Shown here: positions 9,246 through 24,087 of the stretch, in pieces
Layout of the letters: each line of letters starts with the position of its first letter
Numbering within the stretch: the stretch's first letter is position 1
Assembly (NCBI GenBank): GCA_020722085.1
Contig: DYLN01000019.1
Span: 4,828 to 37,780 of the forward strand
Direction: 5' to 3'
Length of the DNA stretch: 32,953 nt
DNA from: Melioribacter roseus
GTDB lineage: Bacteria; Bacteroidota; Ignavibacteria; Ignavibacteriales; Melioribacteraceae
The notes under the pieces: model-generated
Database searches by the model: none
Seen by the model: only the letters and a program-made list of their open reading frames with translations
Told to the model about the DNA's origin: nothing
Made by a program: the position numbers and the translations under genes

Positions 9246-9815
9246 ATGAAAAATACAGTTCTCGATTACGCTCTTAAAATCCGCCTTCCTTTAACTTTAT
9301 TCGTTATAGTTGTTTCTTTCATGTTGACTTTTTACATCTCGCGTGCAGAGAGAGACAGCATTGGCTACAGCCCTGAGCAGCCGATCAAATTTTCGCATAA
9401 ACTCCATGCAGGTACAATGTCAATAGATTGTCAGTATTGTCATACCGGAGTAACCAAAGGAAGGGCGGCACTTGTACCCTCGGTTAATATTTGTATGAAT
9501 TGCCATTCGATCGCGAGAAAAGACAGACCTGAAATAATAAAATTAACAAGATACTACAACGAAGATGAACCAATTCCTTGGAAAAGAGTGCATAAAGTTC
9601 CTGAGTACGCTTATTTTAATCACAGCGTTCATGTTAATAAAGGAATTCAATGTGAAACCTGCCATGGAAATGTGAGAGATATGGATGTAATTAAACAGGT
9701 TAAAGGCTTTACAATGACAGCATGTTTGGATTGTCACCGTGAACCGGAAAAATATGTTTCTTATTTAACCAATATTAAAAAAGGTCCTGAAAATTGTTTT
9801 GCATGTCATAGATAA
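9246..9815 (+). CDS. actA: Alternative complex III subunit ActA, pentaheme cytochrome c
   Basis: Membrane-anchored periplasmic pentaheme cytochrome of alternative complex III (menaquinol:electron acceptor oxidoreductase). The 189-residue protein has one N-terminal membrane helix (about 13-31) and exactly five CxxCH heme sites: Cys62-His66, Cys83-His87, Cys136-His140, Cys160-His164 and Cys184-His188. Extra histidines (FSHKLH, FNHSVH) are good distal ligands. The heme count and size agree with known ActA. It is the first gene of the respiratory operon, after a 235-base leader, and is followed by a 64-aa Tat-like protein and actB. No clear ribosome site precedes the ATG, but the helix begins soon after it, so the start is convincing. 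Confidence 0.93.
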   Translation: MKNTVLDYALKIRLPLTLFVIVVSFMLTFYISRAERDSIGYSPEQPIKFSHKLHAGTMSIDCQYCHTGVTKGRAALVPSVNICMNCHSIARKDRPEIIKLTRYYNEDEPIPWKRVHKVPEYAYFNHSVHVNKGIQCETCHGNVRDMDVIKQVKGFTMTACLDCHREPEKYVSYLTNIKKGPENCFACHR

Positions 9816-9827
9816 GCGAGAGTAAAA

Positions 9828-10022
9828 ATGATGGGAAGTAAAAAAATAAACCGTAAAAAATTTTTAAGTTCGATCGCAAAAAGTGCTGCCGCAGTGTTTT
9901 TAATATCTACTCTTTCTGGGAAATTTTTTAAATCAAAAAGCATTACACAATCTAAAGAAAAACTAAGCAGAATAAAAATTAATATACATCCTGATGCTGT
10001 TATGAGAAACGAGAAGGTCTGA
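9828..10022 (+). CDS. Small Tat-signal-like protein between actA and actB
   Basis: A 64-residue protein I cannot assign to a family. It starts with a basic region and NRKKFLSS, then a hydrophobic helix (about 16-30). This resembles a twin-arginine signal with RK in place of RR, and it is strikingly like the ActB signal (SRRKFVALL, then an Ala-rich core). The remaining 30 or so residues are basic and end in INIHPDAVMRNEKV. There is no cysteine, so no lipid anchor or metal site of that kind. It sits 12 bases after actA and overlaps actB by one base (TGATG), so it is translated within the operon. It may be a small accessory or assembly subunit of ACIII. An ATG at 9831 is an alternative start. 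Confidence 0.7.
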   Translation: MMGSKKINRKKFLSSIAKSAAAVFLISTLSGKFFKSKSITQSKEKLSRIKINIHPDAVMRNEKV

Positions 10023-13000
10023 TGATGAAAGACATTAACAAAGAAAAAAATAAAACATTCTGGAAAAGTTTAAGAGATTATTATGATGATCCCGAAGTAC
10101 TGGAGTTAAAGGCATGTGAGTTTAAGAACGGTGTAACAGACGAATTTAAACCTTCCGAGATGAGCAGTATTTCAAGAAGAAAATTTGTTGCGCTTCTTAC
10201 TGCTTCGGCTGCTTTTGCCGTTACGGCATGTTCAGATTACCGCGATAAGGGCGAAATAATTCCTTATAATAAAAGACCCGAAGGATTACTGCCCGGCACT
10301 GCAAATTATTATGCGTCTACATGCAGCGGATGTGCAAGTGCCTGCGGCATTTTAATTAAAACACGCGAAGGAAGACCAATTAAAGTTGACGGTAATCCCG
10401 AACATCCAATAAATCAAGGGAAAATTTGTGCTAAGGGTCAGGCAAGCATTCTCAACCTTTATGACCCGGATAGAATTTCCGATCCTATGATTTTAAAAAG
10501 AAAATCTTCTTGGAAACAAATTGATTCGGAAATTATTAGTATTTTAAAAGATGCTTCTGCTTCCGGGAAAGAAATTTCGATAGTGACACATCCGGTTTAT
10601 TCACCTACCTTACAAAAATTATTTGGTGATTTTCAAAAGAAGTTTCCTACTACACAAATTTATTCTTATTTGCTCTATGATAATTTGAACAAAGTTAATG
10701 CATGGGAAAAATGCTACGGAACAAGAGAGCTTCCTTCAATTAAATTTGATGAAGCCAAATTAATTTTAAGCCTCGATAGCGATTTCCTCGTAAATGAAGG
10801 AAACTTTATTGAAAATATGCGAAAGTACTCCACGAACCGAGAATTTGTGAACAATACAAATTATAACAGACTTTATGTTGTCGAAGGAAGAATGTCTGCA
10901 ACCGGGATGATGGCGGATTACAGGCTTCGTGTTCGTCCCGATTTACAGTTTGATTTTGTGATGGGATTAATTAATGAACTGTTAAAAAGAGGCGTCTCAG
11001 ATTTTACTGTCGACCCCCTTTTGACTGCACAGCTAAATAAATTTGATCTCACTTCTTTTGCAAAGAGAAATAACATTGAACAGGGAAAAATAAATTATCT
11101 GATTAATGACTTAATAAACTTCAAGAATAAGGCAATCGTAGTAGCAGGAAACAGTTTACCTGAGAAAGTTCATGTTCTTGTCAATTTGTTGAATGAGATA
11201 CTAAACGCAAAGGAGTTGTACGACTTTAACAGCACGTTTGTAGATTTCTATCAAAATAACATGAACGATTTTACAAATCTGGTTGATAAAATAAACAGCG
11301 GGAAAGTTGGAGTACTTATTCATTTTGATACTAATCCTCTTTATCATTTTCCGGCTGACTTGCATTACAAAGACGCTTTGAAAAAAGTTGGCGCTGTAAT
11401 AACCATGACGGAAGAGGAGAATGAAACTTCAGCGGAAAGTAAATATGTACTGCCTGTAAATAATTACCTCGAATCATGGGGAGATTATTATGTGCGGAAG
11501 GGTGTTTACAGTCTACAGCAGCCGGTGATTGCTCCAATTTTCAACACGAGGCAGAAAGAAGCAATTTTGTTGAACTGGCTTGGTGATCCTTCTAAATACA
11601 CGGAAGATATTTACCATAAATATTTGATTGAGAATTTTAGAACATTTGTCTACAGCAGAAAAAATACACCTGTTGCTTTCGAAGCTTTTTGGTATGCCGC
11701 ATTACAAACCGGATTTGTAACAATTGATGAAGAAGCAGATAAACAAAATAATTTTAATAATTTATCTTTAACTTCTATTGATTACTCACCTAACAATAAT
11801 AATAGTTATGCCGTTCAACTTTCAGAAAGCTATTTTATTGGAGATGGAAGATTTTTGAATAACGGCTGGCTTCTGGAATTACCACATCCTGTAACTAAAG
11901 TTACATGGGATAATTATGCAATGATCTCTCCAAGCACAGCCAAGGAACTAAATGTAAGTGATGGAGATTTTCTCGAAGTAACAATTGAAAAAAGAAAATT
12001 AAAAATTCCGGCTATGATTCAACCCGGATGTGCAGACAAATTTATTTCAATTGAGTTAGGTTACGGCAGAACAGTAGTTGGCGAAGCCGGCAAAAATGTT
12101 GGTTTTAATGCAGTAGATTTGATGTCAAAGAATTATACTGTTTCGCCTTGGATATTTGATAAAGCAGAGCTTGTTTCAGCGGGGGGCAGCTACGACTTAA
12201 TGTCCACTCAGGAACATCATTCACTAGATGATAAGTTTCTTAAAGATATTGAGCGCAGAAGAAAAATTATTCGAGAAGGAACGGTATTAAAGTTTCAGCA
12301 CAATCCTAAGTTTTTGCATGAAGAAAAAGAAGAATTGGTCAGCATTACTAACCCTAAAGAATACACCGGCTTAAAATGGGCAATGGCAATTGATCTTAAT
12401 AAATGCACAGCTTGTTCTGCTTGCGTGGCATCGTGCAATGTGGAAAATAATATTCCTGTCGTAGGCAAAGATCAGGTTGCTAAAGGAAGGGAAATGCAGT
12501 GGATGAGAATTGACAGGTATTATTCAGGAACGCCCGATGATCCTATTGTCAGCAATCAGCCGATGCTGTGTCAACAGTGTGATAATGCACCTTGCGAAAA
12601 TGTATGCCCGGTTAATGCCACGAATCATAGTCCCGATGGACTCAACCAGATGGTCTACAACAGGTGTGTTGGCACAAGATATTGTTTAAACAACTGTCCA
12701 TACAAAGTAAGAAGATTCAACTTCTTCAATTTCAGAGATCATTTTGCAGATGCATATTATGAAAATAATTTGACTGCATTGGTTAACAATCCTGAAGTTA
12801 CGGTTCGCTCCCGCGGCGTGATGGAAAAATGCACGTTTTGCATTCAAAGAATTATGGAAGCAAGACAAAATGCAATTAAAGAAAACAGAGAATTAAAGGG
12901 CAGCGATGTTAAGACGGCCTGCCAGTCTGCATGTCCGGCAGATGCAATTGTTTTTGGAGATATGAATGATCCGAATTCCGCTGTGAGCAAATACAGGAAT

Positions 13001-13099
13001 CACGATCTGGCTTATTATGTTTTAGAAGATCTCAACATCAAACCTAATGTAACATATATTGCTAAACTAAGAAATACTCATTCGGAGGAAATATTGTGA
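10022..13099 (+). CDS. actB: Alternative complex III subunit ActB, iron-sulfur protein
   Basis: Large periplasmic-side Fe-S subunit of ACIII. The 1025-residue size matches the ActB1-ActB2 fusion. A Tat motif SRRKFV (51-56) lies 50 residues in and is followed by a lipobox-like VTAC70, both typical. Residues about 95-790 form the molybdopterin-oxidoreductase-like domain, which in characterised ACIII binds no Mo. About 785-1010 is the ferredoxin-like domain with 15 cysteines: 795, 798, 801, 805; 850, 853, 858, 862; 882, 888, 892; and 937, 940, 967, 971. Fifteen fits three [4Fe-4S] plus one [3Fe-4S] cluster. Unusually, the N-terminal domain also keeps CxxCxxxC plus CAKG (101, 104, 108, 136). It overlaps the small gene upstream by 1 base and actC by 4. 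An ATG at 10025 is an alternative start. Confidence 0.95.
13084..13088 (+). promoter_or_regulatory. Ribosome binding site deciding a GTG start
   Basis: GGAGG lies 7 bases before the GTG of actC at 13096, within the end of actB. It supports a GTG start coupled to the actB stop (GTGA overlap). Confidence 0.7.
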
Positions 13100-14463
13100 G
13101 TGCAGTTGATTACACTCAAGAATTATCAGTAATAGAAGGTCGCCCGGCTCTCAGGTCATTAGATGATTTAATTTCTAAACCGCTTGAAGCAAAGCCGGAT
13201 AAAAAATTTTATGCTGCATTGTCTGTTACTTTAACTATGCTTGGGATCGGCGTCGTATGTCTTGCAGTTTCTTTTTACTACGGCGTTGGAATGTGGGGCA
13301 ATAATAATCCTGTTGGCTGGGGATTGCCGATCATTAACTTTGTGTTCTGGGTCGGTATCGGTCACGCCGGTACTCTTATTTCTGCAATACTATTTTTATT
13401 AAGACAAAAATGGAGAACCGGTATTGCACGATTCTCGGAAGGTATGACAATATTTGCAGTAATGACTGCAGGTTTATTTCCGTTAATACACGTTGGGCGT
13501 CCATGGTTAGCCGGCTACCTTCTGCCTTATCCGAATCAGCATTCTCTATGGCCTAATTTTATTTCTCCTTTGCTTTGGGATGTTTTTGCTGTTTCTACAT
13601 ACTTTACTGTTTCTTTGGTTTTCTGGTATATCGGTTTAATTCCGGATTTTGCTGTTTTGAGGGAACGTGCTGCAACAAAAATGAAAAAAATAATTTATTC
13701 TATCTTTAGTCTCGGCTGGAGATTTTCAAACAGACATTGGCAGCATTATGAAAGGGTATATTTAATCTTGGCTGGATTTGCAACACCACTTGTTCTTTCT
13801 GTTCATACAATTGTTAGCTTCGATTTTGCGGTTTCGATTCTGCCCGGCTGGCATTCGACAATTTTCCCGCCTTATTTTGTTGCTGGAGCTGTTTTTTCCG
13901 GATTCGCAATGGTGCAGAATGTTTTGATTTTTGTGAGAAAGATTTTCAACTACGAGCACATTATAACTCTTGATACACTGGAAAAGATGAATAAAATAAT
14001 GTTAGTTACCGGCTCAATGGTTGGCTATGCATATATCATGGAGTTTTTTATTGCTTGGTACAGCGGGTTGCCTACAGAAACATTTACATTTATAAACAGA
14101 GCCTTCGGTCCTTACATGTGGGCATACTGGATTATGTTTAGCTGCAATGTCATTTTCCCTCAGTTATTCTGGATAAGAAAAATTAGAAGAAACATTCCGA
14201 TAATGTTTGTAATCGCAGTTCTTGTAAATGTAGGGATGTGGTTCGAAAGATTTGTTATTGTTATTACTTCTTTATCAAGAGATTTTTTGCCTTCGAGCTG
14301 GGCATATTATAAACCGACATTGGTTGATATCGGGATTCTTCTTGGGAGCTTCGGTTTCTTCTTCACATGGATTTTGTTATTTACAAAAGCGTTACCCGTA
14401 GTTTCAATTTCAGAGGTTAAAGCTTCGGTAGACGGGTCGCAGCCTTCTCATAAGGGTTATTAG
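13096..14463 (+). CDS. actC: Alternative complex III subunit ActC (NrfD/PsrC-like membrane protein)
   Basis: Integral membrane subunit of ACIII, paralogous to ActF, and thought to hold a quinol site and a proton path. The 455-residue protein shows about ten membrane helices of the NrfD/PsrC type. Residues typical of ActC are visible: [17 protein letters not shown] with His90, [11 protein letters not shown] with His132, [12 protein letters not shown] with Asp162, and the [13 protein letters not shown] segment. The N-terminal tail of about 38 residues ([13 protein letters not shown]) is polar and cytoplasmic-looking. Translation starts at GTG overlapping the actB stop, with a strong ribosome site. 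The actD-actE fusion gene begins 2 bases after its stop. Confidence 0.94.
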
Positions 14464-14465
14464 TA

Positions 14466-15605
14466 ATGGATGAAAGAAAATTATATAGTTATACTGGAAT
14501 TTTTGATACGCCCGATGAAATAATTCATGCCGCTGATGCAGTAGCAGGAAAAGGTTATGTTAAATATGATGTACATACTCCTTATCCCTTGCACGGCATG
14601 GATAATGCAATGAGATTAAAGCCGTCAAAAATTGGTTATGCAACGTTAGTATTTGGTCTATCGGGTGCAGTAGCTGCCCTGCTCACTCTATTCTGGATGG
14701 CAGCGGTCGATTATAAACTGGTCATTGGCGGCAAACCGTTTTTTTCGTTTCCAGCTTATGTGCCGATCATATTTGAAGTAACTGTGCTTTCGGCTTCCGT
14801 CATAACTGTATTAACGATGCTTTTTATCTTTTTCAAACTGCCGAATAACAGCCATCCTCTCAATTCAACAGGTTACATGAAGAAAGTGTCGTCAGATAAA
14901 TACGGCATAAGCATTCAAGCAGATGATCCGAACTTTAACGAGGAAGAAGTTAAATTGTTTCTTTCATCGCTGCATGCTAAAGACATTACTCCGATTTATT
15001 ATGACCCAGAAGAAGTTAATTATAAGCATGTAATTCTTCAGCCGAAATTTCTCGGATTTCTTGCATTAGTAGCTTTCTTAACAAGTGGTATTACATATTT
15101 TACATTAAACAAATTAATGTACATGGTCCCGTTTAATTGGATGGATGAACAGGCAAAAGTAATTCCGCAGCAAAAAAGTGCCGTTTTTGCAGATGGATTC
15201 GGTATGAGGCAGCCGGTAAATGGAACGGTTGCACGCGGTCAGATGCCTTTCTTATATAATGATAAGCCGGAAGAAGCTGCTGTTAATTTGGTGAATCTAT
15301 TGTTGCCTTCCAAAGAAAATCTTTCGTTAGGCGAGACTAAATACAATATTTACTGCAGCCCGTGCCACGGTTATCATGCCGAAGGCGACAGCAGGCTTCG
15401 AGGGCAGTTCCCGAATCCGCCGAGCCTTCATTCAGAGAAGGTGAAAAACTGGACCGATGGAAGAATTTTTTATGTTATCACCGAAGGACAGAATATAATG
15501 CCGTCTTATGCTACGCAACTAACACCTGAAGAAAGATGGGCTGTTATCTTATACATAAGAGCTTTACAACGTTCTCTTAACGCTAAGGAGTCTGATTTAA
15601 AATGA
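14466..15605 (+). CDS. actDE: ActD-ActE fusion: DUF3341 membrane subunit plus monoheme cytochrome c
   Basis: One continuous 379-residue frame covers two ACIII subunits usually encoded separately. Residues 1-183 are ActD (DUF3341): a soluble start (YSYTGIFDTPDEIIHAADAV), helices at about 57-82 and 96-124, and a small alpha/beta tail. Residues about 184-379 are ActE-like: a membrane helix (about 194-221), then a class I cytochrome c domain with heme site Cys297-Cys300-His301 and likely axial Met345 (NIMPSYA), closing with PEERWAVILYIRALQ. In characterised complexes ActE is a lipoprotein; here the helix would replace the lipid anchor and keep the heme near the complex. There is no stop, slip run or other sign of an artefact at the junction. 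It overlaps actF by 4 bases (ATGA). Confidence 0.9.
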   Translation: MDERKLYSYTGIFDTPDEIIHAADAVAGKGYVKYDVHTPYPLHGMDNAMRLKPSKIGYATLVFGLSGAVAALLTLFWMAAVDYKLVIGGKPFFSFPAYVPIIFEVTVLSASVITVLTMLFIFFKLPNNSHPLNSTGYMKKVSSDKYGISIQADDPNFNEEEVKLFLSSLHAKDITPIYYDPEEVNYKHVILQPKFLGFLALVAFLTSGITYFTLNKLMYMVPFNWMDEQAKVIPQQKSAVFADGFGMRQPVNGTVARGQMPFLYNDKPEEAAVNLVNLLLPSKENLSLGETKYNIYCSPCHGYHAEGDSRLRGQFPNPPSLHSEKVKNWTDGRIFYVITEGQNIMPSYATQLTPEERWAVILYIRALQRSLNAKESDLK

Positions 15606-16792
15606 GTTCCAATTCTAGCATAATAGAATATCATAAAAAAGAATTACCCGGCAAAGTTTGGACTTTAGGGCTGGCGTTATTTTTAACAGGCTTATTGATT
15701 GTTGTAATTGGATATATTGTTGATCCTGAAAGAACGGCGTTTAATAATATTATTTTGTTAACGTTTTTAATAAGCCTTGGTGCAGGCTCATTATTCTTAA
15801 TTGCAATAGAATATGTTGCGGGTGCTGTTTGGAGCACTCCTTTTAGAAGAGTACCTGAAATATTATCATTTGCTCTTGTACTTGTTCCGATCTTTGCTGT
15901 TCCCTTGTTTTTTAATATGTACGACATTTTTAAATGGACGCATCCTGAAATATTAAAAACAGATGAATTACTTCAAAGCAAAGCGCCTTATCTTAATATT
16001 AATTTCTTCATAATCCGTGCATTGTTGTTTTTTACTGTTTGGATTGTTTTCTTTTTGATGCTATATAGGAATTCAATTAAACAGGATTCCTCCGGGGATC
16101 AGCTTTTAACGAAGAGAAATATTGTTATCTCGGCGATTTTTTTGCCGGTGTTCGCTTTCACAATTTCCTTTACGGCATTTGACTGGCTGATGAGCCTTGC
16201 GCCTCATTGGTATTCAACTATTTTCGGCGTCTATTACTTTTCTGGTACAGTGCTGTGTGCATTGGCTGCAAGCACTTTTATAATTGTTCTGATGAATGAG
16301 AGAGGTTTTTTTGTTAAAGGATTAACGAAAGACCATTATTATAGTCTGGGTGCTTTGATGTTTGCTTTCATAAATTTTTGGGCTTATATAGCATTCTCCC
16401 AGTTCCTGTTGATTTGGTATGCTAACCTGCCAGATGAGACATTCTGGTTTTTGCAAAGATGGGAAGGGAACTGGAAATTTGTTTCTATTGGATTAATATT
16501 TGTTCATTTTGTTATTCCTTATTTTGGCTTGTTATCGCAGCCGGCTAAGATGAATCCACGAAGGCTCCTTGTAATGTCTGTCTGGATTATGTTTGCTCAC
16601 ATTTATGATCTCTACTGGATGATTATGCCGGCATTCAGCAAAGAAGGAATTGCTTTCGGCTGGATTGAAATCGGGTTTCCTCTTTTCACCTTTGGGCTTT
16701 TGATACTTTTGTTTGTATCAAGGTCGAAGAAAGTAAATCTTGTACCTGTCGGAGACCCTAAACTGAAACGTGGAATTGACTTCAGATTATAA
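15602..16792 (+). CDS. actF: Alternative complex III subunit ActF (NrfD-like membrane protein)
   Basis: Second polytopic membrane subunit of ACIII, a paralogue of ActC. The 396-residue protein has about ten membrane helices. Hallmarks include SFTAFDWLMSLAPHWYSTIFGVYYF near the middle and the FWAYIAFSQFLLIWYANLPDETFWF segment, both highly typical of ActF. The C-terminus ends in a short basic tail (KLKRGIDFRL). In characterised complexes ActF sits beside ActC and ActD and may form a proton path. Its ATG overlaps the actD-actE stop by 4 bases, and an anchored cytochrome c gene follows 11 bases after its stop. Confidence 0.94.
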   Translation: MSSNSSIIEYHKKELPGKVWTLGLALFLTGLLIVVIGYIVDPERTAFNNIILLTFLISLGAGSLFLIAIEYVAGAVWSTPFRRVPEILSFALVLVPIFAVPLFFNMYDIFKWTHPEILKTDELLQSKAPYLNINFFIIRALLFFTVWIVFFLMLYRNSIKQDSSGDQLLTKRNIVISAIFLPVFAFTISFTAFDWLMSLAPHWYSTIFGVYYFSGTVLCALAASTFIIVLMNERGFFVKGLTKDHYYSLGALMFAFINFWAYIAFSQFLLIWYANLPDETFWFLQRWEGNWKFVSIGLIFVHFVIPYFGLLSQPAKMNPRRLLVMSVWIMFAHIYDLYWMIMPAFSKEGIAFGWIEIGFPLFTFGLLILLFVSRSKKVNLVPVGDPKLKRGIDFRL

Positions 16793-16803: not shown

Positions 16804-17754
16804 ATGGAACAGAAAAGAAAAATTTGGAAATCCACCACTTCGTGGGAAGACGAAATAAAATTTAAAGATTTGTTAAAAAATCCTATCAGATTGTTTGGAT
16901 GGATATATCCTTACTTTGTAGTTATCTTTTTGATACTCGGAATTTTTTATGTAAAAAATTTAACTCAAATTTCTTTTAACGAACAACCCGGTGTTGTTCC
17001 GGATTCATCAAATATCATTAAAGAAATTCCTTTTAAAAAAGGCGGAGTAATGCCGGCAGTAGATTTGTCAATAATTCAAAAGCCGTCTTCCGATTTAATT
17101 GCTCAGGGCAGAAAATTATTTGAAACAAATTGTTCCTCATGCCACGGTGTTCAGGGAATGGGTGATGGACCTGCCGGTGCAGCATTGAATCCTAAACCAA
17201 GAAATTTTCATTCGAACGACGGATGGGTAAACGGGAGAAATTTCGGAGATATGTATAAAACATTGCAAGAGGGAATTCCAAATAGTGGAATGGCAGCTTA
17301 CGAGTATATGCCGCCGAAAGATAGAATTGCTATTATACAGTATGTTAGGACTTTTTCAGATTTCCCCGAAGTTACTGCAGAACAATTGATAGATCTGGAT
17401 AATACTTATAAATTATCGGAAGGAGTTGTTCAGCCTAACAACATTCCTGTAGAAGTAGCAATTGAAAAAATTTCTGAAGAAAATGAGAGTATTGCTGCTA
17501 AAACCGAACAGGCGCTCAATAAATTGACGGAAAACCCGAATGACGAGGGAGCTTTATTGGTCAATAAGTTTTCCCTTGATAAAAAAAGAGTTTTTGTATC
17601 TTTTTTGAAAGGAAATTTAAATAGAAGTTTTGATCAATTCATCAAAACCGTTTCTTCAGAGCCCGATCAATTAGGCTTTTCTTCAGAAATTATTGGCTTA
17701 AAGCAGACTGATTTGAAGAAGATATTTGATTTTTTAACAAAGGCTGCAGGCTAA
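16804..17754 (+). CDS. Membrane-anchored monoheme cytochrome c with C-terminal extension
   Basis: A 316-residue cytochrome, likely a carrier between ACIII and the oxidase. It has a cytoplasmic N-terminus (1-35), one membrane helix (about 36-51), a linker, then a class I cytochrome c domain (about 95-188) with Cys110-Cys113-His114 and axial Met candidates 163 and 169 (NSGMAAYEYMPP). The domain closes with RIAIIQYVRTF. Unusually, some 125 residues follow (190-316) with no heme site; they are charged and look helical, and I recognise no family. It sits between actF and the SCO gene. Subunit II of the oxidase in this operon has no fused cytochrome c, so this protein could supply that domain in trans. 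It has no lipobox or cleavable signal. Confidence 0.85.
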   Translation: MEQKRKIWKSTTSWEDEIKFKDLLKNPIRLFGWIYPYFVVIFLILGIFYVKNLTQISFNEQPGVVPDSSNIIKEIPFKKGGVMPAVDLSIIQKPSSDLIAQGRKLFETNCSSCHGVQGMGDGPAGAALNPKPRNFHSNDGWVNGRNFGDMYKTLQEGIPNSGMAAYEYMPPKDRIAIIQYVRTFSDFPEVTAEQLIDLDNTYKLSEGVVQPNNIPVEVAIEKISEENESIAAKTEQALNKLTENPNDEGALLVNKFSLDKKRVFVSFLKGNLNRSFDQFIKTVSSEPDQLGFSSEIIGLKQTDLKKIFDFLTKAAG

Positions 17755-17775: not shown

Positions 17776-18594
17776 ATGAAATGTATTAATAAAATATTTG
17801 CATCAATTCTGTTAATTTTATTGCCAGGCGTAATCGGAATTGACCACTTTTTGGCGGATGATTTATATGCTCAGGGAAAGCATATTGAAATAGGTATTGA
17901 TGAGAAACTTGGTAATTACCTGCCGCTCGATGCAAAGTTTGTTACTTCCGATGGCGACAGCGTAACACTTGGACGGATGCTTAATAAACCGACCTTGTTA
18001 GCTTTAGTTTATTATGAATGTCCGGGGATTTGTAGTCCCCTCCAGGCTAATCTTGCCGATGCTGTTGATAAAATAGAAATGGTTCCCGGCAAAGAATTTA
18101 AGGTTATTTCTCTTAGTTTTGATCAGCATGAAGGTCCTAAAATCTCATCCAAGTGGAAACCAAATTATTTGCATATCATTAAAAGACCTTTTGCAGACAG
18201 TGACTGGGTCTTTTTAACGGGCGACAGCGTTAATATTAAAAAAGTAACCGATGCTGCCGGTTTTTATTTCAAGCCGAATGACAAAAATTTTATTCACGCC
18301 GGAACTGTAATTGCTGTTTCTTCAAAAGGCAAAATCAGCCGGTATAATTATGGAATTGAATATAATCCGTTTGATCTGAAAATGGCGCTTCTTGATGCCG
18401 GTGCCGGAAAAACAAATCCAACAATCGCTAAGGTTTTGCAATTTTGTTTCAGTTACGACCCTGCCGGAAGAAGATATTCTTTAAATGCCACACGAATTGC
18501 CGGTTCGGTAATGCTGCTTGCCGTTGGAATTTTTATCGGCATACTTACTATTAAAAGAAGAAAACACAAAAAAGAAGAAAAGAAGGAGTTGTAA
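17776..18594 (+). CDS. SCO1/SenC-family copper chaperone
   Basis: A 272-residue thioredoxin-fold protein that delivers copper to, or reduces, the CuA site of cytochrome oxidase subunit II. The copper motif CPGIC gives Cys82 and Cys86, and the third ligand is His174 in KNFIHAGTVI. An N-terminal signal peptide (about 5-22) is followed by the mature periplasmic domain. A C-terminal membrane helix (about 243-262) then ends in a basic tail (KRRKHKKEEKKEL), so the protein is anchored at its C-terminus. It lies 21 bases after the cytochrome gene and 5 bases before oxidase subunit I, in keeping with an assembly role for this same oxidase. Confidence 0.92.
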   Translation: MKCINKIFASILLILLPGVIGIDHFLADDLYAQGKHIEIGIDEKLGNYLPLDAKFVTSDGDSVTLGRMLNKPTLLALVYYECPGICSPLQANLADAVDKIEMVPGKEFKVISLSFDQHEGPKISSKWKPNYLHIIKRPFADSDWVFLTGDSVNIKKVTDAAGFYFKPNDKNFIHAGTVIAVSSKGKISRYNYGIEYNPFDLKMALLDAGAGKTNPTIAKVLQFCFSYDPAGRRYSLNATRIAGSVMLLAVGIFIGILTIKRRKHKKEEKKEL

Positions 18595-18599
18595 ATAAA

Positions 18600-20240
18600 A
18601 TGTCTAACGGAACTATCGCTATTGCAGAAAAAAGCTTTTATGAGGTATCAACCAATAAGCATAGCGGTATTTTATCCTGGCTGCTTACCACCGATCATAA
18701 GAGAATCGGTATAATGTATCTTGTAACCATTGCATTTTTCTTTTTGGTTGGTGCTACCATCGGGTTATTTATGCGGCTGGAGCTTTTAACGCCGGGCAGA
18801 ACAATAATGGGAGCCCAAACATACAATACTCTTTTTACGCTTCACGGAGTAATAATGATATTTTTGTTTATTATCCCGGGTTTGCCTGCGATCTTTGGTA
18901 ATTTCTTTTTGCCGATTCAAATCGGTGCACGGGATGTTGCATTCCCCAGATTGAATTTATTATCATATTATATTTATGTAATTGGTGCAATTTTAGTTCT
19001 AGTTTCGTTGTTTATTCCTGGGGGTCCGATTGACACAGGATGGACTTTTTACATTCCGTATAGTATAAGAACCGGAACGAACGTATCAATGGCGATTTTT
19101 GCTGCATTTGTTTTAGGCTTCTCATCAATTTTAACAGGAATAAATTTTGTTACCACCGTTCATAGACTACGAGCACCCGGAATGACTTGGTTCAAAATGC
19201 CGCTGTTTGTATGGGCTACTTACGCAACCGCATGGATTCAAATTATTGCCACTCCTGTAATCGGTATAACAATTTTACTGGTAATAATTGAAAGGGTATT
19301 TGGCGTAGGGATTTTTGATCCGGCATTGGGCGGCGACCCGATTTTGTATCAGCACATGTTCTGGATTTATTCTCATCCTGCTGTTTATATAATGATATTG
19401 CCGGCAATGGGCGTTGTTTCCGAAATAATAACTACCTTTTCCAGAAGGACAATTTTTGGATATGTGCCGATTGCTATGTCGAGCCTGGCAATCGCTTTTG
19501 TCGGTTATCTTGTTTGGGCGCATCACATGTTTGTGAGTGGAATGAGCGATACGGCGACATGGATATTCTCGCTTCTAACTTTTATTGTAGCGCTTCCGAG
19601 CGGTGTTAAAATTTTCAACTGGGTGGCTACAATGTATAAAGGCTCCATTGACCCTCAGGTCCCTTTTCTATGGGTAATGAATTTTATTTTTCTTTTCTCG
19701 ATTGGGGGATTATCCGGACTGGTGCTCGGTTCTCTCGCAACTGACGTGCATGTGACCGATACTTATTTTGTTGTAGCTCATTTCCATTATGTAATGTTTG
19801 GCGGTACCGGAACCATTTTCTTCGGCGCCATGCATTATTGGTTCCCTAAAATGTTTGGAAGAATGTATAATAAAAAGTTTGCAACGATTTCTGTAATAAC
19901 TTTCTTTATCGGGTTTAACATGCTCTATTTCCCGAAATTTATTATGGGATATATGGGAATGCCGAGACGGTATTACGATTATTTACCTAAGTTTGCACCG
20001 CTGCAGGAAGTTTCCACAATTGGTTCGTGGATTTTAGTTGGAACGATTTTCTTTATAACAGGCTATCTTTTATATGCATTGAGAAATGGACCGAAAGCCT
20101 CAGGCAATCCCTGGGGAGGAGTAACGCTTGAATGGCATATTCCTTCACCGCCCCCAACTGAAAATTTTGAAGAAATTCCAACAATTACACACGAGCCGTA
20201 TGACTTCAGTCAGTTAAAGGAGATGGAATATGACAAATAG
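18600..20240 (+). CDS. ctaD: Cytochrome c oxidase subunit I, heme-copper type A2
   Basis: Catalytic subunit that reduces oxygen to water and pumps protons. The 546-residue protein shows all metal ligands: His82 and His396 for the low-spin heme, His394 for the high-spin heme, and CuB ligands His259, His308 and His309, with Tyr263 as the likely His-Tyr cross-link. Helix VI reads FWIYSHPAVY: the YS pair (257-258) in place of a helix VI glutamate marks family A2. The K-channel lysine is Lys337 (LPSGVKIFNW), and the D-channel entry aspartate is Asp112 (GARDVAFPRLN). The C-terminus carries a proline-rich tail. It overlaps subunit III by 11 bases. The order I-III-IV-II is less common than one starting with subunit II. 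Confidence 0.97.
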   Translation: MSNGTIAIAEKSFYEVSTNKHSGILSWLLTTDHKRIGIMYLVTIAFFFLVGATIGLFMRLELLTPGRTIMGAQTYNTLFTLHGVIMIFLFIIPGLPAIFGNFFLPIQIGARDVAFPRLNLLSYYIYVIGAILVLVSLFIPGGPIDTGWTFYIPYSIRTGTNVSMAIFAAFVLGFSSILTGINFVTTVHRLRAPGMTWFKMPLFVWATYATAWIQIIATPVIGITILLVIIERVFGVGIFDPALGGDPILYQHMFWIYSHPAVYIMILPAMGVVSEIITTFSRRTIFGYVPIAMSSLAIAFVGYLVWAHHMFVSGMSDTATWIFSLLTFIVALPSGVKIFNWVATMYKGSIDPQVPFLWVMNFIFLFSIGGLSGLVLGSLATDVHVTDTYFVVAHFHYVMFGGTGTIFFGAMHYWFPKMFGRMYNKKFATISVITFFIGFNMLYFPKFIMGYMGMPRRYYDYLPKFAPLQEVSTIGSWILVGTIFFITGYLLYALRNGPKASGNPWGGVTLEWHIPSPPPTENFEEIPTITHEPYDFSQLKEMEYDK

Positions 20241-21174: not shown

Positions 21175-21777
21175 ATGTTTTCAGGACCATCAGCTCATGC
21201 CGGTAATGTTGATTTTGTAATGTTCTACATCGTTTCTATTTCTGTAGTGCTTCTGCTGGGCATTACCGCAACAATGATATATTTTGTATTTAAGTATAAC
21301 AGAAAGAAAGGGCATAAACCAAAAGATATTCATGGTAACATTGTGCTGGAAACAGTCTGGATTGTTATTCCAACGATACTTGTACTTTCGATGTTTTATT
21401 ACGGGTATATGGGATTTAGGGAATTTCGATATGTTCCGAAAGATGCTTTTGTAATTGATGTTGTTGCGCGACAGTGGCAGTGGCAGTTTAAGTATGGTGA
21501 CGGTAAAACAACAGATACGTTGTATGTTCCAATTAACAAGCAGATAAAATTAAATCTAGAATCGTTAGACGTAAATCACTCACTCTATATACCGGCTTTC
21601 AGAATTAAACAGGATGTTCTTTACGGAATTAAGAACTATATGATGCTTACACCTGACGAGTTAGGCTCTTTCGATATTGCTTGTGCTGAATACTGCGGCT
21701 TGGATCATTGGCAGATGTATACTAAACTTGTTGTAATGCCTCAGGATAAATTTAACGAATGGTACAATACTAAGTAA
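21175..21777 (+). CDS. ctaC: Cytochrome c oxidase subunit II (CuA subunit)
   Basis: Electron-entry subunit. The 200-residue protein has two membrane helices (about 13-38 and 60-80) and a periplasmic cupredoxin domain with the full CuA ligand set: His135, Cys170, Glu172, Cys174, His178 and Met181 (CAEYCGLDHWQM). The aromatic patch WQWQF (101-105), used for electron entry, is present. There is no cleavable signal peptide: the chain opens MFSGPSAHAGNVDF, as in Rhodothermus/Bacteroidota relatives. There is no C-terminal cytochrome c domain, so this is not a classical caa3 subunit II and needs a separate donor. It comes last among the oxidase subunits and is followed 50 bases later by ctaB. Confidence 0.95.
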   Translation: MFSGPSAHAGNVDFVMFYIVSISVVLLLGITATMIYFVFKYNRKKGHKPKDIHGNIVLETVWIVIPTILVLSMFYYGYMGFREFRYVPKDAFVIDVVARQWQWQFKYGDGKTTDTLYVPINKQIKLNLESLDVNHSLYIPAFRIKQDVLYGIKNYMMLTPDELGSFDIACAEYCGLDHWQMYTKLVVMPQDKFNEWYNTK

Positions 21778-21827: not shown

Positions 21828-22709
21828 TTGAGTAGAATTAAAAGGCATATTGACATTTACTTTGAACTGGCAAAAGTACGCATTACCTTTTTTGTTGCTA
21901 TGACAACTTCAATCGGTTATTTATTTTATTCTAAAGGTTTAGATTGGCAGTTGATTTTGCCGACAATCGGTGTTTTTCTATTGGCAAGCGGTTCGTCTGC
22001 AATAAATCATTTCCAGGAGAAAAATACCGATGCATTGATGCTGCGGACAATGTCCCGTCCAATTCCTTCAGGTAAAATTACACCTGATAAAGCATTGCTG
22101 TTTGCACTTTTACTCGTTGCTGCCGGTTCAGTAGCTCTTTATTTTTCTTCGAATTTAATTTCACTTTTATTAGGCTGGACAGCATTAATTTGGTATAATT
22201 TCATTTATACACCGATGAAAAAGAAAAATGCTCTTGCTGTAATTCCGGGTTCGTTAATAGGAGCAATTCCACCGGTAATTGGGTGGACCGCAGCCGGCGG
22301 CAGTCCCGCTGATTTTGAAATTATCGCACTTGCTCTTTTCTTTTTCATCTGGCAAATCCCGCATTTCTGGCTTTTGCTTTTGATTTATTCACAGGATTAC
22401 GAAAGAGCGGGATTTCCTACATTGACAAAAATTTTTTCTAACCAGCAGTTAAGCAGAATTACTTATGTATGGATTGCTGCTCTTTCAACTTGGTGCCTGT
22501 TAATTCCTGCGGTTGAGTTTACTGCCAGTAAAATTACTGTGATTGTGCTGCTTCTATTGGGAATTTTACTTTTATGGACAACTAAAGGAATTCTTTCGAG
22601 ATATTTTGAAAAATCAATTTTTAGAAAAGCTTTTATCAGCATTAATTTATACGTAGTTGCTGTTGCTTTGTCATTGTCTTTAGATAAATTAATATTACAA
22701 GAATTATAA
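21828..22709 (+). CDS. ctaB: Protoheme IX farnesyltransferase (heme O synthase)
   Basis: Polytopic UbiA-family prenyltransferase that adds farnesyl to heme B to give heme O, the precursor of heme A. The 293-residue protein shows about eight or nine helices. The first polar motif reads N60-HFQ-E64-KNT-D68, then LMLRTMSRPIPSG; the usual family form is NxxxDRDxD, so Glu replaces the first Asp here. The second is YSQDYERAGFPTL. LAVIPGSLIGAIPPVIGWTA is a typical CtaB stretch. The start is TTG at 21828 with no clear ribosome site, so the exact start is less sure, though SRIKRHIDIYFELAKVRIT matches the family N-terminus. The polytopic cytochrome gene follows after 10 bases. No ctaA is in the window. 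Confidence 0.93.
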   Translation: MSRIKRHIDIYFELAKVRITFFVAMTTSIGYLFYSKGLDWQLILPTIGVFLLASGSSAINHFQEKNTDALMLRTMSRPIPSGKITPDKALLFALLLVAAGSVALYFSSNLISLLLGWTALIWYNFIYTPMKKKNALAVIPGSLIGAIPPVIGWTAAGGSPADFEIIALALFFFIWQIPHFWLLLLIYSQDYERAGFPTLTKIFSNQQLSRITYVWIAALSTWCLLIPAVEFTASKITVIVLLLLGILLLWTTKGILSRYFEKSIFRKAFISINLYVVAVALSLSLDKLILQEL

Positions 22710-22719
22710 TGGTCTGTTT

Positions 22720-24087
22720 ATGGAGTTTTTAGATAAACTGGTTATTCCGCAGTCTGCACATCACATGGTCTTATTGAAATACCTTCTGGTATTAACATTT
22801 ATTTTATTTATTTCGTATTTCAGCGTGCTTTTTGGCTCAACGGCTTTATCGTTGTATTTCAACCGTAAAGCACGGAAAACAAATAATAAAACCTTTTCAC
22901 GGTTTTCAAAAGATCTGATTGATTTGGTTACATTCAATAAGTCGATTGCTTTTGGACTTGGATTTATTCCGCTGTTGAGTTCCGCCTTTTGCTATTCGCA
23001 GCTTTTGCATCAAACACAATTGAAGGTTGCCGAATTTATTCTGATCTCACTAGTCTTTTATCTGTTCGGCGTTGTTTTAATTTATGTGTATAAGTATTCA
23101 TTTCACTTAAAGGATATTTTTGGGTACTTAGAAGGGAAAAATATTTTAAGTACAAATGAAAACGATTTGATTCTTGAAGAAGCAGCCCGTTACAAAACCA
23201 ATTCCGAACATTTACTTAGAAAATCCGGCAGATACGGATTGATATTTTTTATCGTTGCAGTTTACTTATTTTTAGGCGCAGTCAATTTGGCATCGGATGT
23301 TGATAGTTGGAAGGATGCCAACAGTTTATTCGGAATATTATTTTCTTTAAGGACAATAATTGCGTTTACCCAATTTATTTTTGCTTCACTTGCAATTACT
23401 TCTGGCTATTTTCTTTACATATACTTCAGACCAAATTCCGATAAAAAAATCAGCGATGAAGCCTATTCAAACTATTCAAAGAAATTTTTGTTAACCACAG
23501 GTTTAATTGCAACTTTGGTTTTACCTCTTGTTATTGTTGCTGGTGTGCTGCTTAAGCCGGTTGTCTCTTTATCTTTTGGTGTTTTTGGTCTAACTGTTAT
23601 TTTATTGTTCATAGTGCTTCTGCTTGCCAACTTTTTCTACTTTATGATTAAAGAGAACGAAGTAAAGTACAGTTCTTCACTTTTATATGTGCTGGTTTTG
23701 TTCTTCGTTTTTGCAATTATAAAAGATCAGCTTGCATTTGATACTTCTACGAAAGATCAGTTTGCAGTTCTTGCCGATAATTTTAATAAATATGAAAAGA
23801 AAGAACGGGAACTGCTTGGCGGCGTTGTAGAAGTCAAAATAAACGGTGCCGATATTTACAACGGACGCTGCATCGCCTGCCATGCTTTCGATCATAGAGT
23901 AGTAGGACCGCCCTATAATTCAGTTCTTCCCAAATATGAAGGCAAAGAAGATGAATTAATAAAATTTATTCTTAATCCGGTAAAGAAAAATCCGGACTAT
24001 CCTGCTATGCCTAATCAAGGATTAAAACCAAATGAGGCAAAGGCAGTTGCTGAGTGGCTGCTTCAAACCTACAAAAGCGGCAAGTAA
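22720..24087 (+). CDS. Polytopic membrane protein with C-terminal cytochrome c domain
   Basis: A 455-residue protein I cannot place in a named family. The first 335 residues contain about eight membrane helices (roughly 16-47, 75-95, 103-125, 171-190, 206-235, 256-278, 281-310 and 318-335). Between helices 3 and 4 lies a polar loop (about 126-170). The C-terminal part (about 368-452) is a class I cytochrome c domain: Cys384-Cys387-His388, VVGPPY after the heme site and axial Met430 (PAMPNQGL). The helices show few histidines suitable as paired heme b ligands, so I cannot claim a cytochrome b core. It is the last gene of the act-cox operon, 10 bases after ctaB and before a strong terminator. 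It may be an alternative donor or acceptor at the oxidase. Confidence 0.8.
   Translation: MEFLDKLVIPQSAHHMVLLKYLLVLTFILFISYFSVLFGSTALSLYFNRKARKTNNKTFSRFSKDLIDLVTFNKSIAFGLGFIPLLSSAFCYSQLLHQTQLKVAEFILISLVFYLFGVVLIYVYKYSFHLKDIFGYLEGKNILSTNENDLILEEAARYKTNSEHLLRKSGRYGLIFFIVAVYLFLGAVNLASDVDSWKDANSLFGILFSLRTIIAFTQFIFASLAITSGYFLYIYFRPNSDKKISDEAYSNYSKKFLLTTGLIATLVLPLVIVAGVLLKPVVSLSFGVFGLTVILLFIVLLLANFFYFMIKENEVKYSSSLLYVLVLFFVFAIIKDQLAFDTSTKDQFAVLADNFNKYEKKERELLGGVVEVKINGADIYNGRCIACHAFDHRVVGPPYNSVLPKYEGKEDELIKFILNPVKKNPDYPAMPNQGLKPNEAKAVAEWLLQTYKSGK

Follow-up and report, generated by a model that had tools for sequence, protein, structure and literature searches.

A cytochrome c with a predicted cytochrome bd-type membrane domain, a candidate electron relay in the ACIII–aa3 oxidase module of Ignavibacteria

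What does an unassigned membrane cytochrome c contribute to an operon that encodes ACIII and an aa3-type oxidase? The window, a stretch of 32,953 nucleotides, contains a gene run in the order actA-actB-actC-actDE-actF-actE2-SCO-coxI-coxIII-cox4-coxII-ctaB-target, in which the target gene comes last, starting 10 bases behind ctaB and separated from the following prmC by 87 bases (Table 1). A preliminary description of this DNA had placed the gene there and had read its product as an unassigned protein of eight membrane helices followed by a class I cytochrome c with C384, C387, H388 and M430, and the open reading frame, an AlphaFold model and Pfam agree with it on every point. The model has eight long helices (residues 13–54, 74–95, 103–139, 149–192, 210–236, 247–277, 286–312 and 318–343), while a hydropathy scan returned eight rows, of which 203–221 and 213–231 overlap and in which the scan starts 253–295 cover two helices. 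The heme c motif reads C384-x-x-C387-H388, and M430, the sole methionine beyond residue 309, supplies the distal ligand expected of class I. Pfam recognised the cytochrome c domain alone (PF00034, above cut-off); residues 1–350 matched no Pfam family (one match, E = 8.5), NCBIfam gave weak matches to the c domain and no family for the membrane part, and a membrane-part profile found nothing credible among PDB sequences (one chance match, E = 0.28). Orthologues are 30–76% identical to the window protein and keep the same gene order, a conservation of protein and position far beyond chance.

Table 1 Features of the window discussed in the text.
Feature	Position	Strand	Basis or remark
Protein with predicted bd-fold membrane domain and cytochrome c, 455 aa (target)	22720..24087	+	ORF translation (ATG at 22720, stop at 24087), AlphaFold model
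Eight-helix domain, residues 1–350, predicted fold of cytochrome bd subunit I	22720..23769	+	Models, structure alignment, profiles
Class I cytochrome c, residues 375–450, C384/C387/H388, M430	23842..24069	+	Sequence, Pfam
Conserved PQSxxH, residues 10–15	22747..22764	+	Alignment of family members
QLLH, residues 94–97, directly past helix 2	22999..23010	+	Alignment of family members
ActA, 189 aa, five CxxCH	9246..9815	+	Sequence; too short for sixth-heme domain
ActB	10022..13099	+	Name by position and M. roseus operon
ActC-like membrane subunit	13096..14463	+	Name by position and M. roseus operon
Fused ActDE, one CxxCH	14466..15605	+	Name by position and M. roseus operon
ActF-like membrane subunit	15602..16792	+	Name by position and M. 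roseus operon
Monoheme cytochrome c, ActE-like (actE2)	16804..17754	+	Name by position and M. roseus operon
SCO1/SenC	17776..18594	+	Pfam
coxI	18600..20240	+	Pfam
coxIII, 209 aa	20230..20859	+	Pfam
cox4-like small subunit, 98 aa	20868..21164	+	
coxII, 200 aa, CuA-type motif read from sequence, no cytochrome c domain	21175..21777	+	
ctaB, UbiA family, heme O synthase by position	21828..22709	+	Directly upstream of target

To place the membrane part, we compared AlphaFold models, built from 16 sequences, with known structures. Mean pLDDT was 82 for the whole protein (pTM 0.74) and 84 for residues 1–350 alone (pTM 0.84). For each of two models, the top ten entries in VIA-align 2 were cytochrome bd subunit I, aligned over 296–313 residues at 3.2–3.8 Å (Z = 21.9–24.9), with the best alignment to CydA reaching Z = 24.9 at 3.4 Å over 302–304 residues in two models. 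ActC/ActF of ACIII came next (Z = 17.0–18.6), PsrC scored about 14, and all other rows lay below 15. Foldseek ranked cytochrome bd chains at positions 1–18, subunits I and II mixed, with zero matches at E below 0.001. In both models, the membrane part is thus folded like cytochrome bd subunit I, which scores well above the NrfD type. The NrfD fold had been put forward for comparison in the preliminary description and does align, although cytochrome bd subunit I fits clearly better; kinship with NrfD/ActC was rejected in view of CydA being nearer in fold and of profiles that, unlike the folds, do not align (hhalign 0.2% and 2.4% for ActC/ActF). The resemblance is of separate interest: the ActC-like and ActF-like subunits of the window, which have the NrfD fold, align with the CydA-like model at the Z values given above without profile similarity, and the NrfD and CydA folds may, judging from the models, share a very old origin. 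PuuD, of the urate-oxidase type, likewise comprises eight helices plus a cytochrome c and was an early candidate, but the window protein gave no such Pfam match.

Sequence kinship with CydA was reached in steps. A profile of 33 family members, searched against 395 Bacteroidota genomes, matched 60, including distant proteins with histidines in helices 1 and 5. These distant CydA'-like proteins, which are encoded near CydA-like genes and which we call companions, adjoin CydA-like proteins bearing a C-terminal cytochrome c. With hhalign, the target family aligned to the companions at 99.2% (E = 1.3e-19), the companions to the CydA-like proteins with cytochrome c at 96.8%, and these in turn to ordinary CydA at 96.3%, whereas the direct comparison of target and CydA gave a nonsignificant 6.2%. 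As controls, six other families of the operon (actC, actF, coxI, coxIII, ctaB and SCO) reached at most 2.4%, from alignments of 34 rows each apart from actC with 5. In the reverse direction, a profile of four companions retrieved the window protein (E = 3.8e-9, positions 26–138), with part of the profile covered. The CydA-like link of the chain rests on five proteins with cytochrome c, two of which, both from locus L067, match PF01654 (9.5e-21 and 1.1e-16), while the other three (L066, L068 and L079) show no PF01654 match at E 0.1; their joint profile matches the CydA of 5doq at 2.6e-7. Two further CydA-like proteins divided in the same way, with L178 matching PF01654 (1.7e-17) and L181 not matching. 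The profile search of the membrane part that the preliminary description had proposed therefore ended without a Pfam or NCBIfam match, and with a kinship to CydA that it had not foreseen. This kinship holds at the sequence level via the profile chain only; together with the models, it indicates that the target is CydA-related and within reach of the cytochrome bd superfamily.

The companion family numbers 22 proteins (loci L066–L068, L079, L172–L183 and L186–L191). It was drawn from 24 companion-type loci, 20 of them profile-search matches and four found earlier, with matches such as G275, G370, G405 and G417 left out. A companion and a CydA-like protein lie within four genes of each other in 22 of these loci; this CydA-like protein carries CxxCH in 18 and lacks it in the four loci of one family, f21. 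The remaining two loci, L184 and L185, encode single CydA-like proteins of about 600 aa without a companion.

A bd-type fold raises the question of bd-type chemistry. CydA has nine helices and a C-terminal GRQPW motif. Although the target resembles CydA/AppC (PF01654; PDB 7oy2, 5doq) in fold over residues 13–350 (Z up to 24.9), identity is about 9%, the model has eight membrane helices and no ninth, the GRQPW end seen in an aligned CydA does not occur in the window sequence, and a cytochrome c is added at the C terminus. The model also has no Q-loop, with only 8 residues between helices 247–277 and 286–312. Alignments map the TM1 heme-ligand histidine of CydA, which we take to be E. coli H19, to F30, and the TM5 histidine for heme b558, presumably E. 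coli H186, to Q218. We then counted histidines at both positions in 88 distinct members, after removing duplicates and proteins under 320 aa and setting three companions apart. Position 30 is histidine in none of the members, nor is there one within one residue, and in all 22 companions; position 218 is histidine in 4/88 members and 9/22 companions. By these ligand and motif tests, the window protein is predicted to be neither a bd oxygen reductase nor a quinol oxidase of the bd kind.

We next asked how closely the gene follows its neighbours. Besides the window, the family has 87 distinct members, and 78 of these touch ctaB, which lies directly upstream in 76 and directly downstream in 2; of the other nine, two lie behind coxII, five in ACIII operons without coxI/coxII and two elsewhere. 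Homologues thus nearly always sit beside ctaB or act-cox operons, a point on which the preliminary description had asked for a check. The two members elsewhere (L080:5292-6566, a second copy in G035, and L082:5437-6705, the only copy found in G048) lie away from any cox/act operon, the former near two genes with four CxxCH each. A true target occurs in 53 of 58 related genomes (raw count 54; the match in G025, a 79-residue piece with a stop, is excluded). It is present in 46/46 related genomes with coxI, in 51/52 with orthologous actC, where the one exception is G025, whose ACIII genes lie on broken contigs, and in 0/4 with neither. At the level of the class, a match occurs in 130 of 245 genomes, a few of which have companions only. 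The target thus follows ACIII more closely than coxI, and in Ignavibacteria the ACIII-aa3 module almost always includes this gene. One contig of the set (L028), filed under Desulfobulbaceae, shares 82–88% DNA identity along 13 kb with L032, an Ignavibacteriae contig, which reflects either misbinning or transfer.

The cytochrome c domain, recognised by its CxxCH, is present in 82 of the 88 members, with a methionine at position 430 in 81 of those 82. Two of the absences (L033 and L076) arise only because contigs end. The other four fall among six ACIII operons without coxI/coxII (L071, L072, L073, L078, L138 and L166), two of which, L138 and L166, retain the domain; outside these operons, it is missing from none of 80 judgeable members (P = 7e-6, kinship ignored). 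The group of six includes L072, moved there from the automatic class 'other', which reflected a distant CoxI match, and L166, which was added. In a quick tree, in which L071 and L072 form long branches and many forks are weak, the four members without a c domain fall at three places, so that the domain has apparently been lost three times, and only in ACIII operons without coxI/coxII. Since the c domain is missing only in operons of this kind, we infer a function of this domain with the aa3-type oxidase and an association of the membrane domain with ACIII. A clean rule by which the domain occurs only where coxI is present fails on L138 and L166. The CoxII genes beside family members (n = 79) lack CxxCH in 72 cases and carry their own heme c in 7; at those 7 loci the target still retains its c domain, which weakens the idea that it simply replaces a CoxII c domain.

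The origin of the c domain points in the same direction as that of the membrane part. Its nearest relative is the c domain fused to the companion of L066 (63.3 bits, with the next at 26.2), so the fusion itself may, on sequence grounds, have been inherited from the companion branch; the caa3 CoxII type is not the closest in sequence, as all seven CoxII c domains scored only 9.8–15.2 bits. Residue 15 is H or N in 79 of the 82 c-bearing members; in the four that lack the domain it is R three times and E once. It may lie at the interface of the membrane and c domains. As a specific docking residue for the c domain, H15 was not upheld: the four c-less members are suggestive, but the c-bearing companion of L066 has E there. 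H97 is uninformative in this respect, being histidine in just 54/82 c-bearing members.

From the computed fold, remote family, missing ligands and near-fixed linkage, we propose, with a probability of roughly 0.6, that the target began as a bd-type subunit and now links ACIII to the oxidase, both as a scaffold and as an electron relay held in the membrane. Within the cytochrome bd superfamily, it would descend from a CydA'-like companion subunit of the c-type branch and, devoid of the bd heme-binding histidines, would have been built into the ACIII-aa3 oxidase module of Ignavibacteria. The eight-helix domain would act as a membrane scaffold, presumably free of heme b, that may dock on ACIII, CoxIII or both. 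The heme c at the C terminus, probably on the periplasmic side, would accept electrons from the ACIII hemes (ActA/ActE) and pass them, if the direction is as we suppose, to CuA of CoxII. Tethered hemes c between complexes III and IV are known from cytochrome cy and from the cytochrome cc subunit of actinobacterial bcc-aa3, both of which differ from the target in using other anchors. The role would be the one proposed, in passages of PMC8552683, for the sixth heme of ActA in Flavobacterium johnsoniae and, together with ActE, for the extra heme c of caa3 in Rhodothermus marinus, where a heme c is likewise able to join ACIII to an aa3-type oxidase; unlike the target, these links are other proteins and have no bd-fold anchor. 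In the F. johnsoniae supercomplex, the contact runs through CoxIII, according to a passage of PMC8361435. The window CoxII has zero CxxCH, and the window ActA five.

Several observations count against this relay. Two other monoheme cytochromes of the operon (ActDE and actE2) could serve CuA, the only copy in G048 is not near a cox operon, and there remain both the 7/79 loci with a second heme c on CoxII and the c domains of L138 and L166 without coxI/coxII. The nonsignificant direct profile match to CydA and the Foldseek result above also weigh against it. The gene's persistence beside ACIII in the six operons without coxI/coxII, four of them with a target that lacks the c domain, would be explained if the target were a structural or assembly subunit of ACIII, with a secondary heme c and a bd-fold domain that stabilises the complex together with the CoxIII-like and cox4-like proteins. 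These six operons have no coxI, coxII or ctaB nearby; in five, genes for a CoxIII-like and a cox4-like protein separate actE2 from the target, as though they were part of ACIII. We nevertheless consider this explanation unlikely, although the strongest of the alternatives, in that the c domain is kept in 80/80 judgeable members elsewhere, suggesting a redox function alongside the oxidase.

The membrane domain could also be redox-active itself, binding heme b or a quinone through H15, Q94, H97 or, in some members, H304, and so provide an extra electron entry. Among the first 33 sequences, Q94 and H97 vary little or not at all, and four columns hold histidine in more than 30% of members: 15 (69/88), 97 (56/88), 304 (33/88) and 129 (30/88). 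In the AlphaFold model, helices 1 and 2 have positions 15 and 97 at their ends, and position 304, an asparagine in the window protein, falls within helix 7. Among members with a c domain, Q94 persists in 80/82, but H97 only in the 54/82 given above, and a bis-His site of H15 and H97 was rejected because the two co-occur in 46/88 members only. Histidines at 218 and 304 occur jointly in a single member (L022, 6001-7347; 1/88), where the pair is possibly a remnant or a new heme site; because of this member, heme b in a few members is conceivable from the sequences. Set against the counts of 0/88 and 4/88 at the CydA ligand positions and the short connection where a Q-loop would be, an active membrane domain appears improbable. 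The preliminary description had suggested either an extra electron entry point or a link to another pathway, and a membrane part that binds a quinone or only anchors the heme. A link in electron flow is probable, and an extra entry from quinol is not favoured because the Q-loop and the bd heme-ligand histidines are missing; in the membrane part, the known bd-type quinone site was not seen, and a heme relay on a bd-fold anchor is favoured.

The orthologue in Melioribacter roseus connects the target to published work. In G009, a gene at 34.9-36.2 kb behind SCO-coxI-coxIII-cox4-coxII-ctaB encodes a protein of 446 aa, 49% identical to the window protein, with the whole membrane domain present. This is almost certainly MROS_0033, since the gene order fits the seven genes Mros0039-0033. 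Passages of PMC5492636 and PMC3534657 name the MROS_0033 protein a class I soluble c551/c552 cytochrome, and one of the two states that it was reliably identified in aerobically grown cells only, like CoxI, CoxII, ActC and ActDE. Because the G009 protein carries the whole membrane domain, the label 'soluble' does not fit what reads, from its sequence, as a membrane protein. Among the literature matches listed, seen as titles and abstract openings, the two M. roseus papers are the only account of the family, and a mention in the bd phylogeny of Murali et al. 2021 is possible. A figure by the M. roseus authors shows cytochrome c551/552 donating to cc(o/b)o3 and cbb3 oxidases, in line with a membrane-anchored donor that serves, in the manner of cytochrome cy, another acceptor such as a cbb3 oxidase or N2O reductase, and two genes downstream of the L072 target lies a gene that, read from its sequence, is CcoN-like (25% to CoxI). 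However, the L072 target itself has no c domain, and no such CcoN-like gene occurs among the few genes flanking the other loci, which makes this reading quite improbable. Least probable of all is an oxidase biogenesis factor acting with CtaB and SCO in heme or copper insertion, for which the adjacency to ctaB in 78/87 members speaks, but which conflicts with the gene's retention in six ACIII operons with neither ctaB nor coxI/coxII nearby and with a fold that is that of a respiratory subunit.

How a bd-type subunit might have come to partner ACIII is suggested by known relatives. In the OR-C/OR-N systems (labels as used in PMC13189123 and PMC10839748), CydAA' comprises two CydA-like subunits together, and passages of these papers and of PMC12342949 describe them as bd relatives thought to use cytochrome c, not quinol. 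The last of these sources reports the bd-like CydAA' of OR-N5 directly downstream of ACIII in Nitrospirales, and a move from bd partner to ACIII partner is therefore plausible. The target differs from these systems in lacking the CydA heme-ligand histidines, in having no catalytic CydA beside it and in sitting with an aa3-type oxidase. The companions are the nearest relatives of its membrane domain, the one in L066 even carrying the same kind of fused c domain; unlike the target, all of them retain the TM1 histidine, nine also the TM5 histidine, and each is encoded within four genes of a CydA-like protein. If the relay we propose is real, the target would be a cytochrome bd relative without oxygen chemistry that retained the fold and kept its heme c tethered, and the origin of complex III–IV connectors would become testable. 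Electron routes from ACIII to the oxidase vary by species and are partly known; the target points to a third, common in a whole bacterial class and running through a protein published as a soluble cytochrome.

Companion loci extend this pattern to the other kind of complex III. The four f21 loci (L181, L182, L183 and L190) encode coxI-coxIII-cox4-coxII(c)-ctaB, a small cytochrome c in three of four, a companion, a Rieske protein, a bc-type cytochrome b and a CydA-like protein without CxxCH, with the companion behind ctaB of the cox operon, the place that the target occupies in the window. Six loci of family f39 (L175, L176, L178, L179, L180 and L191) cluster a companion with Rieske, cytochrome b and a CxxCH-bearing CydA-like protein; Pfam confirms the Rieske protein and cytochrome b in L181 and L178, and elsewhere both are read from gene order and length. 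Proteins of the bd fold thus sit with complex III of both kinds. We tentatively suggest, at somewhat less than even odds, that they are general complex III–oxidase connectors, comprising the relay without heme b but with heme c in ACIII-aa3 modules and the CydA-like pairs encoded with Rieske/bc-type cytochrome b; a subunit of an oxygen reductase would then have become an electron-wiring part at least once. Two further types of arrangement were seen among these loci. L172:2043-4721 and L173:5940-8630 each encode, beside a companion, a CydA-like protein of about 890 aa in which a bd relative is joined to a multiheme cytochrome with eight CxxCH, and the lone CydA-like proteins noted earlier (L184:4699-6540, which matches PF01654 at E = 2.1e-26, and L185:4557-6371) are followed, in L185, by genes with CxxCH motifs.
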